A stretch of 41,834 nucleotides of DNA from Candidatus Blautia stercorigallinarum (GTDB lineage Bacteria; Bacillota; Clostridia; Lachnospirales; Lachnospiraceae), in assembly GCA_019112785.1 (NCBI GenBank), contig DXIQ01000094.1, positions 1-41,834 of the forward strand, given 5' to 3'. The notes beneath the pieces are model-generated. The model was not told the DNA's origin, ran no database searches, and saw nothing but the letters and a program-made list of their open reading frames with translations. Of the stretch, positions 23,559 to 35,285 are shown one piece after another (the stretch's first letter is position 1; each line of letters starts with the position of its first letter). A program made the translations under genes and the position numbers.

Positions 23559-23600
23559 CCCCTTTTTATTTTCCGGCTGCCGTTTTTATTATCAGTCAAA

Positions 23601-23680
23601 GACCCCGATGCAAGCATACGGGGCATCAAACTAGCAGCGATGCAAGCATGGCCGCTTGGCTCGTTGCCCGCGGGAATAAA
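23601..23680 (-). repeat. Dispersed repeat next to a terminator, copy 2, with internal duplication
   Basis: 23640-23680 matches 499-539 (about 34 of 41 bases). Within the block CGATGCAAGCAT occurs twice (23606-23617, 23638-23649) and CCCCG/CGGGG at about 23602-23622 forms a hairpin around the first copy. On the minus strand it directly follows the terminator of the response-regulator gene. Confidence 0.6.
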
Positions 23681-27848: not shown

Positions 27849-28013
27849 AAAGCGGGGAGCTGCCGCATTAGTCATATTTCAGGAATATTTAAACATTTTA
27901 TGCGAATGTGTCGAGCATAGCTTTGAGACCATAGGCTCAAAGCAGCGCAGACTGAGCAATAAAATGTTTAAATATTCTCGATTTTGATTAATGCGACAGC
28001 TCCCCGCTTTTTT
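27847..28013. terminator. Very large nested hairpin, bidirectional terminator between Xre gene and metK
   Basis: The outer arms GCGGGGAGCTG / CAGCTCCCCGC and CGCATTA / TAATGCG are flanked by A-runs and T-runs on both sides. Inside, a perfect 19-bp stem (27883-27901 with 27959-27977) encloses an 8-bp stem (27920-27927 with 27936-27943). The whole 167 bases fold as one structure. The ends act as a terminator in both directions; the inner part looks like an inserted palindromic element. Confidence 0.75.
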
Positions 28014-28033
28014 CTTCTATTTTACGATACCAG

Positions 28034-28098
28034 GCTTGTGGGAGCGCGAAGTGCAGAACAATCCGCAGGTATCATAGTTGGGGTCTTTTGACCCCAAC
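28034..28098 (+). repeat. Structured intergenic element, locus 1 (partial)
   Basis: TTGT...GGGA-GCGC-GAA-GTGC-AGA...ACAA (28036-28061) matches stem B of the array units at 34 kb. It is followed by GGTATCAT (28068-28075) and a perfect 9-bp hairpin with TTTT loop (28077-28098). It lies 6 nt from the metK stop, and no T-run follows on the metK strand. Confidence 0.55.
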
Positions 28099-28104
28099 AT
28101 CATT

Positions 28105-29298
28105 TTACTGTTCCAGATATTTTTTCAGGGTATCTGCTCTGTCCAGTTTCTCCCAGGGCAGATCCAGATCATTTCTTCCGAAATGTCCATATGCGGCTGT
28201 TTGTTTATAGATCGGACGGCGCAGATCCAGCATTTTGATGATCCCTGCCGGTCTCAGATCGAAGTTCTCCCGGATGATTTCTACCAGACGGTTATCGGAA
28301 AGCTTTCCTGTACCAAAGGTATCCACCATAATTGAAGTAGGATGTGCAACGCCGATCGCATAGGACAGCTGGATCTCGCATTTCTTTGCCAGGCCTGCTG
28401 CCACCAGATTCTTTGCCACATAACGGGCTGCATAAGCTGCGGAACGGTCTACCTTGGTGCAATCCTTTCCTGAGAAGGCTCCGCCGCCATGACGGGCATA
28501 TCCGCCGTAAGTATCCACAATGATCTTACGTCCTGTCAGACCGCTGTCTCCATGAGGTCCGCCGATAACGAAACGGCCTGTGGGATTAATAAAGAATTTT
28601 GTATTTTCATCAACCATATCCTTTGGCAGGATAGGATCAAAGACATATTTCTTAATATCTTCATGGATCTGTTCCTGAGTCACTTCCGGATCGTGCTGGG
28701 TAGAAAGCACTACCGCATCCAGACGTACAGGTCTGTCATTTTCATCATATTCTACCGTTACCTGTGTCTTTCCGTCCGGTCTTAAATAGGTCAGAGTGCC
28801 GTCTTTGCGGACTTTTGTCAGCTGTCTTGCCAGCTTATGAGCCAGAGCGATAGGATAAGGCATATATTCTTCTGTCTCGTCTGTAGCGAAACCGAACATC
28901 ATACCCTGGTCGCCGGCACCGATAGCGTCCAGCTCTTCCTCGGACATTTTATGCTCTTTTGCTTCTAATGCCTTGTCCACACCCAGAGCAATATCTGCAG
29001 ACTGCTCGTCAATGGTAGTGATCACACCGCAGGTGTCTGCGTCAAAACCATATTTTGCTCTTGTATATCCGATCTCTCTTACAGTGTCCCGGACAATCTT
29101 GGGGATATCCACATAGGCTTTCGTGGTGATCTCTCCCATGACCATGACCATTCCTGTAGTGGTGGCTGTCTCGCAGGCCACGCGGCTCATAGGATCTTTT
29201 TCCATAAGGGCATCCAGGATAGCGTCAGAAATGGCATCGCACATTTTATCCGGATGGCCTTCTGTAACAGATTCTGATGTAAATAATCTTTTTTCCAT
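28105..29298 (-). CDS. metK: S-adenosylmethionine synthetase
   Basis: 397 residues, the family length. It makes SAM from methionine and ATP in the cytosol. [22 protein letters not shown] at the start, [15 protein letters not shown] in the middle and [23 protein letters not shown] with HGGGA are the diagnostic ATP/methionine-site motifs and are intact. It is controlled by a SAM-I riboswitch (29403-29502), giving feedback by its own product. SAM supply is relevant to the rRNA and tRNA methyltransferases in the window, though there is no operon link. Confidence 0.98.
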
Positions 29299-29402: not shown

Positions 29403-29502
29403 CTCTTATTGTTCGATTTATTCGCTCAGGTTGGCACCTTCCGCATAGCGGGGTTGCCGTGACTTCACAGTTCCTATGTAACTCCATCACTCTGAATAAG
29501 AG
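29403..29502 (-). ncRNA. SAM-I riboswitch (S box)
   Basis: On the minus strand P1 is formed by CTCTTATT and AATAAGAG. Between them lie AGAGTGATGGAG, then GAAGTCACGGCAACC and GGAAGGTGCCAACC, the conserved S-box core in correct order. It lies about 100 nt upstream of metK, which it should repress when SAM is plentiful. Confidence 0.93.
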
Positions 29503-30866: not shown

Positions 30867-30990
30867 ATACACACCTCTTATTTTGGCTTATGCCCGTCTA
30901 TATTTAACAGCCTGTCCCAGGAACAGGCCCTTATACTCCATTTTCCCCTGTAATACAATCCGTCCCATAAGGAACTTCCATCACTATAAT

Positions 30991-31092
30991 ACCATAAATT
31001 GCTCCGCATTTCATGCTCATGTTTTACGGGTCCCAACGCCATGTTTTTTCATGCAGGCATGAAACACATGGCTTTTGGACCCTTGGTATCAT
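30991..31092 (-). repeat. Structured intergenic element, locus 2, in the murA leader
   Basis: On the minus strand: ATGATACC, then a long hairpin (31082-31028) with outer GGGTCC/GGACCC, middle GCCATGT/ACATGGC and apical TTTCATGC-CT-GCATGAAA, then CGTAAAACATGAGCATG and GCGGAGCAATT. The same order occurs at 34040-34130, with the middle stem changed on both sides. It lies between the predicted murA promoter and start codon. The gene-free 30867-31195 stretch otherwise holds only that promoter. Confidence 0.65.
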
Positions 31093-32303: not shown

Positions 32304-33962
32304 TCAGCTATTGTTCTGCTGAAGAGTTCCGATAAAAGCAGGGATCAGCTGTTTCTTTCTGGAAACAACTCCCGGAAGCAGATAGCCCCCGTCTTTCTCC
32401 TTGACTTCAAAGGATTCTTCCACCAGCCTTCCGCTGCCGTCTCCATAGCAGAGTATTTCCGAAGATTCCTCCAGGATATTGGTAAGCATAAAGAATACCA
32501 TAGAAACTCCATTCTTTCCACATTCATGTTTCATAACCGGCAGGATCCTCTTCTTCAGATCTGTCAGCTCCTGAGCGCTCATAGAACTGATCTGTCCTAC
32601 GCCGAAGTTTACCTTATCTGAAGTAAAACGTTTGAAGTCCTGATAGAAGATAACTTCTATAGTCTTTCCCTTCAGGTTGCTTCCTGCAGTGAACATCTCT
32701 TTTGCGAACTCTTCTATATTAATTCCCGCAATAAGTGCCAGGGCCCCTGCCGCCATCTTATCGGAAGAAGTACAGGTAGGCGACCGGAACATAAGAGTGT
32801 CGGAAATAATAGCCGCGCAGAGCAGTCCTGCGATCTGCGGACTGATCTCCAGAGATTTTTCCACATACATCTGATAAAGGATCGTTGCGGTACATCCTAC
32901 CGGCTGGTTCCTGAACATAATGGGCTGAAGAGTCTCCAGAGAACCCAGTCTGTGATGATCTATGATCTCCAGGATTTCTGCGGAATCAATATTATCCACT
33001 GCCTGGGTTTTCTCATTATGGTCTACTAAAATCAACTGTTTCTTCTTCATTCCCAGAAGATTTCTTCTGGACACGGTTCCGATATATTTTCCGTGTTTAT
33101 TCACCACAGGGAAAGCTCTGTGGCGATTTTTTACCATAATATCTTTAATATTGTCTGTATAATCATCGGTCTGAAAAGTGATCAGGTTATCCTTCTTCAT
33201 AATATGTTTCACCGGAATACTCTGATTGATCAGTCTGGCCACACTGAAAGTATCCAGGGCAGACTGGATGATCACACATTGATTTTTCTCCGCCGCATCT
33301 ATAATATCCTGTTCAACCTCTGTATGGTTGCAGACGATAATACAGCTTACATTCTTCTCTATGGCGCAGAGATGATCCTCATGCCTGTCACCCAGGATAA
33401 CCAGATCATCTTCTTCCAGGAACTCTCCCATTTTATCCGGGTGAGCCGCTCCAATGACCACCTTTCCCCTTACAAAATAACCATGAGGGTTTCCTGTGAC
33501 CACCTTTCCTTCCACAGTATTGGCAATACTTCTGTACTGAGTCCTTGCGTTGGAAAGAAAATAATTGTCATGAGCATCCATATAGGACTTGGCAATATCC
33601 CCTGTTGTGATCAGTCCTTCCAGCTTCCCATCCTCCTTGGTAATAGGCAGGGTCACCGCACTGGTCTGCTTCATAATAGCCCAGGCGTCCTTAATAGAAA
33701 TACTGTTCTCCACACCCGGCGTCTCCCGGATCTCCATATCCTTCACCTGAGTTCCTACATCCGAAAGATATCCCGGCGCCTCCACGCCAAACCGCTTCAG
33801 CACATACTCCGTCTCCTCATTGATCTGGCCGGCCCTCTTCGCCGCATATTTATTTCCTTTATTCATCCGGTTCTTAAAATCCGCATAAGCAATCGCAGAA
33901 CAAATAGAATCCGTATCCGGATTCTTATGCCCGATAATATAAATTTTCCTCTGCTTCGCCAT
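32304..33962 (-). CDS. Family II Mn-dependent inorganic pyrophosphatase with CBS/DRTGG regulatory insert
   Basis: 552 residues, the long form. GHKNPDTDSICSAIAYADF (12-30) is the DHH-family metal site and IDHHRLG the DHH motif proper. CBS motifs (about 74-128 and 250-305) flank a DRTGG domain, an insert that in related enzymes binds adenine nucleotides or diadenosine polyphosphates and gates activity. The C-terminal DHHA2 domain includes the run near FKRFTSDKVNFGVGQISS. It hydrolyses pyrophosphate in the cytosol. It starts its own unit upstream of the flavin reductase gene (20-nt gap). Confidence 0.94.
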   Translation of the reverse strand: MAKQRKIYIIGHKNPDTDSICSAIAYADFKNRMNKGNKYAAKRAGQINEETEYVLKRFGVEAPGYLSDVGTQVKDMEIRETPGVENSISIKDAWAIMKQTSAVTLPITKEDGKLEGLITTGDIAKSYMDAHDNYFLSNARTQYRSIANTVEGKVVTGNPHGYFVRGKVVIGAAHPDKMGEFLEEDDLVILGDRHEDHLCAIEKNVSCIIVCNHTEVEQDIIDAAEKNQCVIIQSALDTFSVARLINQSIPVKHIMKKDNLITFQTDDYTDNIKDIMVKNRHRAFPVVNKHGKYIGTVSRRNLLGMKKKQLILVDHNEKTQAVDNIDSAEILEIIDHHRLGSLETLQPIMFRNQPVGCTATILYQMYVEKSLEISPQIAGLLCAAIISDTLMFRSPTCTSSDKMAAGALALIAGINIEEFAKEMFTAGSNLKGKTIEVIFYQDFKRFTSDKVNFGVGQISSMSAQELTDLKKRILPVMKHECGKNGVSMVFFMLTNILEESSEILCYGDGSGRLVEESFEVKEKDGGYLLPGVVSRKKQLIPAFIGTLQQNNS

Positions 33963-34004
33963 TCCATTTTTCCTTTCTCAAAGGTCATTTTCACTTCTTT
34001 TTTT

Positions 34005-34033
34005 ATACTATCACACTTCTAATTTCCTGGCAA
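34005..34033 (-). promoter_or_regulatory. Promoter of the pyrophosphatase operon
   Basis: Minus strand TTGCCA (34033-34028), 17 nt, TAGTAT (34010-34005), about 40 nt before the start codon. The -35 box touches the edge of the structured element region. Confidence 0.5.
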
Positions 34034-34052
34034 TTATGATATGATATCCCCA

Positions 34053-34107
34053 GGGTTCCAAGCTCAGGCATTTCATGCTCGCATGAATATGCCTGAATTT
34101 GGAACCC
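34053..34107 (+). repeat. Structured intergenic element, locus 3: leading hairpin
   Basis: A 55-nt nested hairpin: outer GGGTTCCAA/TTGGAACCC, middle TCAGGCAT/ATGCCTGA, apical TTCATGC-TC-GCATGAA. It is preceded by ATGATATC and followed by CGTCTAAAACATGAGCATG, the same order as in the murA leader. Confidence 0.7.
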
Positions 34108-34111
34108 GTCT

Positions 34112-34558
34112 AAAACATGAGCATGTAAACCGATAGGTTGAAATGCGAATGTTTTCTGAATTGCGGGAGCCGAAGGCGGAGCAATTCTGGGGGATATCAT
34201 TCCCCCGAATACGACACCCATTAAAACATGAACATGTAGCCCGATAGGGCGGAGTGTGAATGTTTTCCTGAATTGCGGGAGCCCAAAGGGCGGAACAATT
34301 CAGGGAGTATCATTAAACTTGAGGGTGACACCCGTCTAAAACATGAGCATGGAAACCGATAGGTTGGAATGCGAATGTTTTCTGAATTGCGGGAGCCGAA
34401 GGCGGAGCAATTCAGGGGGATATCATTCCCCCGAATACGACACCCGTTAAAACATGAACATGTAGCCCGATAGGGCGGAATGTGAATGTTTTCCTGAATT
34501 GCGGGAGCCGAAGGCGGAGCAATTCTGGGGGATATCATTTCCCCAATTTTAAACTGCA
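34112..34558 (+). repeat. Four-unit tandem array of structured elements (A-B-A-B) before the S1 gene
   Basis: Units start at 34112, 34223, 34338 and 34449 (111-115 bases each). Units 1 and 3 differ at about 4 of 111 bases; units 2 and 4 are near-identical over their first 60. Each unit has stem A (AAAACAT/ATGTTTT, symmetrical GA/GA internal loop, GCAT/ATGC, then AACC-GATA-GGTT) and stem B (GAATTGC/GCAATTC with inner GCC-GAA-GGC); units 1, 3 and 4 also have stem C (GGGG-GATATCAT-CCCC type). In units 2 and 4 the stems read ACAT/(G/A)TGT and GCCC-GATA-GGGC, so both arms changed together. With 34053-34107 it fills the gene-free 33963-34577 stretch. No coding potential or spacers. Confidence 0.85.
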
Positions 34559-34577
34559 TTTAAAGGAGGAGCGAATT

Positions 34578-35285
34578 ATGTCAGAAGAAACAAAGAAACC
34601 GGAAACCATGGAAGATTATATGAATGAGATCAACGCATCCTTTTCTAATTTCCGGGATGACGATATGCTGATCTGGGACAAGCTGGCCCAGATGAAAGAG
34701 GATAAAGAATCTTTTGAAGTTACTGTGGAAGGTATTGTAAAGGGCGGCGTGATCGCCTATGTAGAAGGCATCCGCGCCTTTATCCCTGTATCCCAGCTGG
34801 CCCTTCACTATGTGGAAAATCCCGAGGATTATTTAAAGAAAACTCTTACTGTCAGAGTGATCGAAGTGGATGAGCAGGAAAATCGTCTGGTTCTCTCTGC
34901 CAGAGAAGTGCTGAGAGAAAAAGCCCAGGAAGAAAAGCTGGAAAAGATCCAGAATATCAAAGTGGGAAGTATCGTAGAAGGGACCGTAGAATCCCTTCAG
35001 ACCTATGGCGCTTTTATTGATCTGGGAGACCATATTTCCGGTCTGGTACATATTTCCCAGATTTCTGAAAAAAGGATCAAATCTCCAAAGGCTGTGCTTT
35101 CTGTAGGAGATCATGTGAAAGCAAAAGTTATTAAAAATGAGGACGGGAAGATCAGCCTTAGTATAAAGGCCCTTGCCCAGCCAGAGGAAGAGAAAGACGA
35201 AGAACCGGATTTTGAAATTCCAAAGAGCGAAGAAATCTCCACATCCTTAGGTTCTCTTCTGAAAAATCTGAAGATCAACGGTTAA
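34578..35285 (+). CDS. S1 RNA-binding domain protein
   Basis: 235 residues from the ATG at 34578 behind AAAGGAGG; the frame is open upstream through the repeat array but that part is not coding. It has two S1 domains: about 48-118 (VTVEGIVKGGVIAYVEGIRAFIPVSQL...NRLVLSARE) and 133-200 (VGSIVEGTVESLQTYGAFIDLGDHISGLVHISQ...GKISLSIKAL). Ends are acidic. Such short S1 proteins resemble parts of ribosomal protein S1 and probably bind mRNA or ribosomes. It heads a two-gene operon with a PTS IIC protein. Its leader consists of the structured array, which could be a binding target (speculation). Confidence 0.9.
   Translation: MSEETKKPETMEDYMNEINASFSNFRDDDMLIWDKLAQMKEDKESFEVTVEGIVKGGVIAYVEGIRAFIPVSQLALHYVENPEDYLKKTLTVRVIEVDEQENRLVLSAREVLREKAQEEKLEKIQNIKVGSIVEGTVESLQTYGAFIDLGDHISGLVHISQISEKRIKSPKAVLSVGDHVKAKVIKNEDGKISLSIKALAQPEEEKDEEPDFEIPKSEEISTSLGSLLKNLKING

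Follow-up and report, generated by a model that had tools for sequence, protein, structure and literature searches.

A Clostridiales-1 (RF01699) RNA array in an S1 gene leader is probably one expanded copy of a MITE-like mobile element

In the stretch of DNA analysed here (the window; 41,834 nucleotides from Candidatus Blautia stercorigallinarum), four structured RNA units stand in tandem ahead of a gene for an S1-domain protein. What are these units, and do they belong to the gene that they precede? A sequence-only reading of the window had treated the array as an undescribed RNA whose stems change in a compensatory manner, and had hinted that the RNA belongs to the S1 gene. It had called for a covariance search of Rfam, with a match to a known family named beforehand as a refutation, and for a test of covariation among homologues.

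Results

Layout of the array

Tandem Repeats Finder, run on the window, reported a period of 112 at 34104-34544 and one of 226 at 34104-34539, the 226-spaced copies being 92% identical across 204 nt. A covariance model of the module, R1, gave four strong matches of 78-81 bases spanning 34110-34525; the model draws on 35 sequences, of which the S1 locus supplied 11, and was thus partly built from the array units themselves. Both results bear out the earlier description of four tandem units with a higher period of 226 bases, and that they stand ahead of an S1-domain gene, in its leader, was confirmed as well. The array region folds with a z of -11.7, and 0 of 100 shuffles were as good. The 5′ boundary of the element lies at ~34043, upstream of the array as first noted, and adds a closing stem (P1) and a long hairpin at 34053-34107 (P2) that is found in the first unit only. 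The parts, with their scores against R1 and against the Rfam family RF01699, are the following.

34040 to 34045, + strand: -10-like hexamer TATGAT with TGA directly 5′, read from the sequence; presumed S1 promoter, a putative function
34043 to 34052, + strand: left end and 5′ arm of closing stem P1, GATATCCCCA; the cmscan alignment to RF01699 begins at 34045, and other copies have GATACCAGGG at this end
34053 to 34107, + strand: hairpin P2, once per array; inverted repeat 34053-34071 / 34089-34107 and RF01699 alignment
34110 to 34187, + strand: P3-P4 module, unit 1, type A; R1 80.3 bits, RF01699 106.4 bits at 34045-34196
34221 to 34301, + strand: P3-P4 module, unit 2, type B; R1 84.9 bits, RF01699 66 bits at 34198-34309
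34336 to 34413, + strand: P3-P4 module, unit 3, type A; R1 80.1 bits, RF01699 63.7 bits at 34314-34422 in the genome search
34447 to 34525, + strand: P3-P4 module, unit 4, type B first stem and type A second stem by unit comparison; R1 81.7 bits, RF01699 69 bits at 34391-34536
34526 to 34544, + strand: right-end remnant, GGGGGATATCATTTCCCC; 34528-34541 is complementary to 34038-34051
34562 to 34569, + strand: Shine-Dalgarno sequence AAAGGAGG of the S1 gene, read from the sequence
34578 to 35285, + strand: S1 gene, a 235-aa protein with S1 RNA-binding domains; open reading frame listed from an earlier GTG, Pfam PF00575 at E 3.8e-28 in two stretches

The final three bases of TATGAT are the opening three bases of the element. 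A paired -35/-10 scan listed no + strand site at 34040..34045; at the same place the element-free congener G312 has the -10 region TATGTTATAAT, which is alike in several element-free species, and in such species the S1 start codon lies a few tens of bases 3′ of it. No terminator-like site was found in 33900-34700. The right end of the array is degraded, and a target duplication is not readable in the array itself.

The units alternate as A-B-A-B in the first stem, as had been noted: AACC-GATA-GGTT in units 1 and 3 and GCCC-GATA-GGGC in units 2 and 4. The alternation claimed for the second stem stands for unit 2 only, which has GCCC-AAA-GGGC; units 1, 3 and 4 all carry GCC-GAA-GGC. Unit 4 is consequently a B/A chimera, with the first stem of type B and the second of type A. 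Similarly, the inner stem change to ACAT/ATGT is right for unit 4, while unit 2 reads ACAT/GTGT with one wobble.

A known RNA family

With cmscan against Rfam 15, the array matched RF01699, Clostridiales-1, in sequence and structure, three matches (106.4, 69 and 66 bits) exceeding the gathering cut-off of 48. The array is therefore not undescribed: the refutation named in advance holds for the RNA as such, and a new RNA family is ruled out by the match. The entire P1-P2-P3-P4 layout (model positions 1-166) is found in unit 1 only, units 2-4 being without a proper P2, and beyond unit 1 the array is P3-P4 repeated. It differs from the family in having one P2 and four P3-P4 modules, and the family is filed in Rfam as 'Gene; sRNA'. 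The genome itself contains 31 RF01699 matches, of which 20 are above the cut-off and four of those 20 are the array. Matches were found in 161 of 299 genomes of the family (130 above cut-off) and in 57 of 295 of the order (42 above cut-off), with per-genome counts up to at least 9 in both searches.

Weinberg et al. 2010 (PMC2864571), who named Clostridiales-1, list it in a single row of a table, marked 'y n n' and with Clostridiales and human gut, and the passages of their main text covered here mention neither mobility nor tandem modules. In the parts covered of four other papers, the family appears through human 'paralogs' in dinucleotide tracts (PMC7302867), within a list of sRNA families (PMC7682815), as a count in a fish cDNA table (PMC3466250) and by its name or number (PMC6808178). 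No description of RF01699 as mobile was found in the passages of the open-access papers that the search covered.

Covariation of the fold

We aligned 35 modules, 24 chosen to be less than 88% identical and 11 from the S1 locus. In this alignment 98.9% of the cells pair, 11 of the 18 counted pairs change on both sides and 99 cells show a double change; the pairing, both-side and double-change values were reached by 0 of 500 shuffles, and structures slid along the alignment pair in 19-38%. Pair types did not exceed the shuffles in number, 133 of 500 being as high. The counted structure excludes the outer pairs at the base of P3 and its entire apical stem, because gaps shift them to different columns by row, and the count is silent on them. 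The P4 purine loop is largely invariant and the GA/GA internal loop fully so, in agreement with the unchanged internal loop described within the array. The compensatory stem changes read from the four units were thus borne out, and the covariation among homologues, in 11 of 18 counted pairs against 0 of 500 shuffles, extends to other genomes.

Mismatches were counted in a whole-element alignment of 91 elements with 32 predicted pairs. There we found 72 G-U against 19 A-C cells and 33 other mismatches, largely shared by descent. Events inferred on a tree numbered 31 for G-U and 16 for A-C (p 0.04), 23 leading to other mismatches, and internal branches held 6 against 3; a first hand-written motif scan had given G-U 8 and A-C 6, figures biased by its own thresholds. 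The given strand is modestly favoured as the one that would fold as single-stranded RNA or DNA. To our knowledge, there is no reason for a typical MITE to carry a covarying internal fold, which counts against the MITE reading.

Ends, target duplications and placement

The left end of intact copies reads GATACCAGGGTCAAAAGGTC or a variant of it, and the right end, past an extra hairpin and on the other strand, reads GATGTTGGGGTCAAAAGGTA. The two agree at 15 of 20 positions as imperfect terminal inverted repeats of ~20 bp. A further terminal inverted-repeat pair is GACGTAAGGGTCAAAAGTC / GAGGTAGGTGTCAAAAGTT. The flanks directly outside the ends repeat each other as a target duplication of 7 bp, sometimes 8 bp. 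We counted these in 91 distinct copies whose ends both fit a fixed pattern blind to the flanks and which had 65 bases to their left and right. Worn copies were left out in this way, as were loci L120-L149, L170-L181 and L202-L239; no copy was counted twice and 11 were from the own genome. The duplication was exact in 55 copies, 45 at 7 bp and 10 others at 8 bp, and absent in exact form in 36, whereas shuffled flank partners matched at 7 or 8 bp in 2.2 copies on average and in 8 at most (2000 trials). Smaller earlier sets gave exact 7-bp and 8-bp duplications in 24 and 5 of 43 and in 32 and 8 of 73 copies. The duplicated 7-mer resembles ATAATAT. Among near-identical dispersed copies in two genomes of one genus (G547 and G574), the duplication is exact at 7 or 8 bp in 16 of the 17 fetched, and in the remaining one it agrees at 6 of 7 positions.

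An empty site was found for a copy in the own genome (L022): it is flanked by two AAAATAT, and congener G300 has one AAAATAT and no element. The flanks of the two loci are 95-96% identical, with a two-base difference in an A-run, and farther out on the right of the empty site there is another palindromic repeat. A second copy (L008) is missing from both G314 and G307, where the junction is not clean. Internally deleted derivatives were read among the copies printed with their flanks, and the window itself contains two further copies.

28026 to 28101, + strand: second, internally deleted copy of 76 bp, right-hand part; perfect 7-bp repeats ATTTTAC at 28019-28025 and 28102-28108
30987 to 31091, - strand: partial element copy; RF01699 46.3 bits, slightly below the cut-off of 48

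Around the shortened copy there are a weak R1 match (27959-28064, 27 bits) and a sub-threshold RF01699 match (27872-28074, 31 bits). The inverted repeats, the target duplications, the clean empty site and the shortened copy of the window with its flanking duplication together indicate that RF01699 behaves as a MITE-like mobile element.

Several other repeats and RNAs were seen in the course of this work. Stretches of 37 bp consisting of ends only, two terminal repeats face to face as judged by their listed positions, occur at three sites.

G547 C1:2779242-2779278: 37-bp ends-only stretch
G547 C1:3511632-3511668: 37-bp ends-only stretch
G574 C2:16367-16403: 37-bp ends-only stretch

A near-palindromic dispersed repeat of ~160 bp (AAGCGGGGAGCTGCCGCATTA...ATGCGACAGCTCCCCGCTT) lies at 27850-28009, directly before the shortened Clostridiales-1 copy, and has relatives beside the L022 insertion and in congeners. 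Another dispersed repeat, of ~57 bases with ATGCTTGCATC motifs, has a copy at 23594-23649 (- strand) and many more in the own genome and congeners, which are matched by the left part of L008. Loci L014 and L019 have an extra GC-rich insert of ~55 bases (GCTGCCGCTTCGGTCGGCGCTAAGC...) in the right-hand part, and several G194 copies also have a GC-rich insert. The L008 copy (1501-1672) stands directly behind a TATAAT box and upstream of a gene that we take to be ParA/Soj-like from the motif MGRIIAIANQKGGVGKST, translated by eye. The window also has an ordinary SAM riboswitch (29403-29502, - strand, 74.6 bits) and an equally ordinary glycine riboswitch (611-706, - strand, 61.6 bits).

The usual placement of copies is intergenic in any orientation. 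With crude open reading frame calling around 55 loci, the orientations of the neighbouring genes were ++ in 10, -- in 13, +- in 12 and -+ in 10, the other 10 loci being inside a frame or without a neighbour; there was no leader bias, nor a consistent sense orientation to the downstream gene. Promoter-like sites in the left flank numbered 13 against 9, 7 and 6 of 73, and enrichment of upstream promoters was not clear, no -35 peak being seen at the right distance. As there is neither a gene-leader bias nor a clear promoter enrichment, transcription of the copies would not be general. Promoter-directed, orientation-specific insertion was considered and rejected for want of a -35 peak and of a gene-orientation bias, despite the array and L008 both lying behind -10-like boxes.

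A transposase bearing the ends of the element was not found in the genomes and loci that we examined, and among the matches listed for G194, G232, G547 and G574 no end pair encloses a transposase. An IS256-type mobiliser (PF00872) was rejected, the domain being absent from seven of 10 high-copy genomes and its loci having no matching end pair. DDE_Tnp_1 (PF01609) has matches in eight of the 10 genomes, yet the 30 loci fetched have no matching end pair, and this candidate was set aside too; one lone element end lies near PF01609 loci, in L234. Three multi-kb intervals (G194 contig 64, G574 C3:28600-31300 and G547 C1:1987600-1991700) contained, by eye, ordinary genes and no recognised transposase.

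The S1 locus across the genus

The S1-domain protein is present in all 20 congeneric genomes searched. In a comparison of ~330 bases upstream, made mostly by eye, the module count of the S1 leader is four for the own genome, three for G307, two each for G300 and G028 (the latter with extra P2 hairpins) and one for G314. Two further leaders (G304 and G316) have short hairpins that are possible remnants, the G313 contig stops 21 bases ahead of the S1 start codon, and 12 of the 20 genomes have a leader without the element (G299, G301, G302, G303, G305, G306, G308, G309, G310, G311, G312 and G315). Running cmscan on ten S1 loci gave RF01699 in four (G314, G307, G300 and G028) and in none of the other six, which include both possible remnants. 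An R1 search at E 1e-5, scoring up to 150 candidates per genome, found no module among them in 11 of the 12 element-free genomes, and G310 has one elsewhere. In G314 the element is preceded by ATGTTAT and followed by ATGTTAA, a match of 6 in 7, where G312 has a single ATGTTAT; this suggests, from the flanks compared, a target duplication at the S1 locus.

Units 1 and 3 of the window are 96 and 99% identical to unit 2 of G300, and units 2 and 4 are 96 and 92% identical to its unit 1. From these identities, the A-B-A-B order would be explained most simply by a later duplication of an older B-A pair. Genus-wide, the R1 search found at least 57 modules in at least 9 of the 20 genomes; by our own grouping these fall into at least 48 loci, of which at least six are multi-module and at least four of those are the S1 leader. 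Two-module copies occur in other genera too (L061, L118 and L119). Given that the element is absent or present with 1-4 modules among congeners, service to the S1 gene is unlikely, and a dedicated S1 riboswitch is an unlikely reading. The hint that the RNA belongs to S1 finds no support in the same comparison, with 12 of 20 element-free leaders, in the marks of transposition, or in the other copies, which adjoin unrelated genes with no preferred orientation across the 55 loci.

Discussion

The array is very probably one copy of a MITE-like, non-autonomous transposable element, Clostridiales-1, inserted directly behind the S1 gene's -10 box and with its RNA module expanded. This reading is built on the identity, mobility and covariation of the element; transcription of the copy and an effect on S1 are steps that we infer. 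The element, which would be moved by a transposase acting in trans, may have inserted between the -10-like box and the S1 start codon in an ancestor of part of the genus. Because it landed behind the -10-like box, its first bases completing TATGAT, the S1 mRNA would be expected to begin with the element, and the S1 promoter would transcribe the insertion into a long folded 5′ leader of ~500 nt. Recombination between the repeats may then have altered the number of P3-P4 modules from 1 to 4, the A-B-A-B order presumably being a duplicated older two-module copy. Since each module folds on its own, as boxB does, such an expansion need not disturb the rest.

Why the fold is kept is a separate question. 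It is most likely kept because an element that is active requires its transcript, or its single strand, to be folded, for example to be harmless or stable in host mRNAs, and not for sensing on behalf of S1. A more specific proposal, which we put forward tentatively as one possibility, sees in Clostridiales-1 a structured RNA that is mobile and that relies on the folding of its own transcript to spread or to be tolerated, the fold having been transposed across Lachnospirales, inserted by chance into an mRNA leader and amplified as a module.

The array does lie between a -10-like box and a start codon in the gene's own orientation, and the stems of the S1-locus units have been preserved through sequence changes, as would be expected of a cis-regulatory RNA (a riboswitch or protein-binding leader) in which tandem units sharpen the response or cooperate, possibly under autoregulation by the S1-domain protein. 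We nevertheless hold such a role for highly improbable: the element is missing from 12 of 20 congeneric genomes and has 1 to 4 modules in five others, the same RNA is found beside unrelated genes in every orientation, and it moves with target duplications. A fold serving the element, or an RNA harmless in host transcripts, fits better than service to S1. Nor is it likely that the array is an artefact of assembly. The genome is a draft of 111 contigs with 91.45% completeness, the repeat copies are 92% alike and the G313 contig breaks off 21 bases before the S1 start codon, but the four units are not identical to one another, and the same place holds 3, 2, 2 and 1 of them in other genomes, which leaves misassembly a very small chance.

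Two other explanations concern the family as a whole. The defined ends, the conserved fold, the bias of G-U over A-C and the Rfam type 'Gene; sRNA' would all suit a trans-acting small RNA with many paralogues; duplications, an empty site and deletion derivatives are on the other hand traits of a mobile element, no terminator-like site is seen in 33900-34700 and promoter-like sites at the left end are not clearly enriched, so that we consider this account unlikely, if the least so of the alternatives. Less probable again is selection on single-stranded DNA hairpins of an IS200/IS605-type or REP-like element, with the tandem units as repeats at the DNA level. Tandem forms and, by position, face-to-face end pairs exist, and a single-strand DNA fold would likewise favour G-T over A-C, which counts for this account. 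Target duplications and terminal inverted repeats are, however, not known to be features of IS200/IS605 transposition, and the modules sit away from the ends of the element.

The MITE-like reading of the array has parallels in known systems. BOX elements of Streptococcus pneumoniae, as described in the accessible part of PMC3049150, are small, dispersed composite repeats with an RNA fold, in which the number of boxB modules varies by locus; they may be co-transcribed with neighbouring genes, and boxB folds separately. On that description, the array shares with BOX an internal module whose number varies at one locus (1, 2, 2, 3 and 4 in five genomes); the hosts and sequences are different, the likeness is claimed for the architecture alone, and in this genus it is the S1 locus that shows marked variation in module number. 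In QMITE2 of Coxiella the terminal inverted repeats measure 23-29 bp and the direct repeats 7-9 bp, and MITEs favour AT-rich intergenic targets and have folded transcripts, according to the available part of PMC10969869. Clostridiales-1 differs from prokaryotic MITEs in that its internal fold covaries across genera. The STAXI motif, in the portion of PMC2864571 that describes it, consists of structured units in tandem that may act as DNA or RNA; both it and the array are tandem structured units, a likeness drawn from the description, whereas STAXI units are pseudoknots near genes for handling DNA.

Taken by itself, the array is an expanded representative of an RNA family already described. The interest lies in the MITE-like behaviour of that family, which is annotated as sRNA, in its selected fold and in its BOX-like expansion. 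What Rfam lists as an sRNA of gut bacteria appears to be a transposable element, and its many copies are then to be read and counted differently. A covarying internal fold is unusual and makes it testable whether a non-autonomous element can carry an RNA of use to itself or to its host, and the S1 locus, where congeners range from 0 to 4 modules, offers a ready natural experiment.
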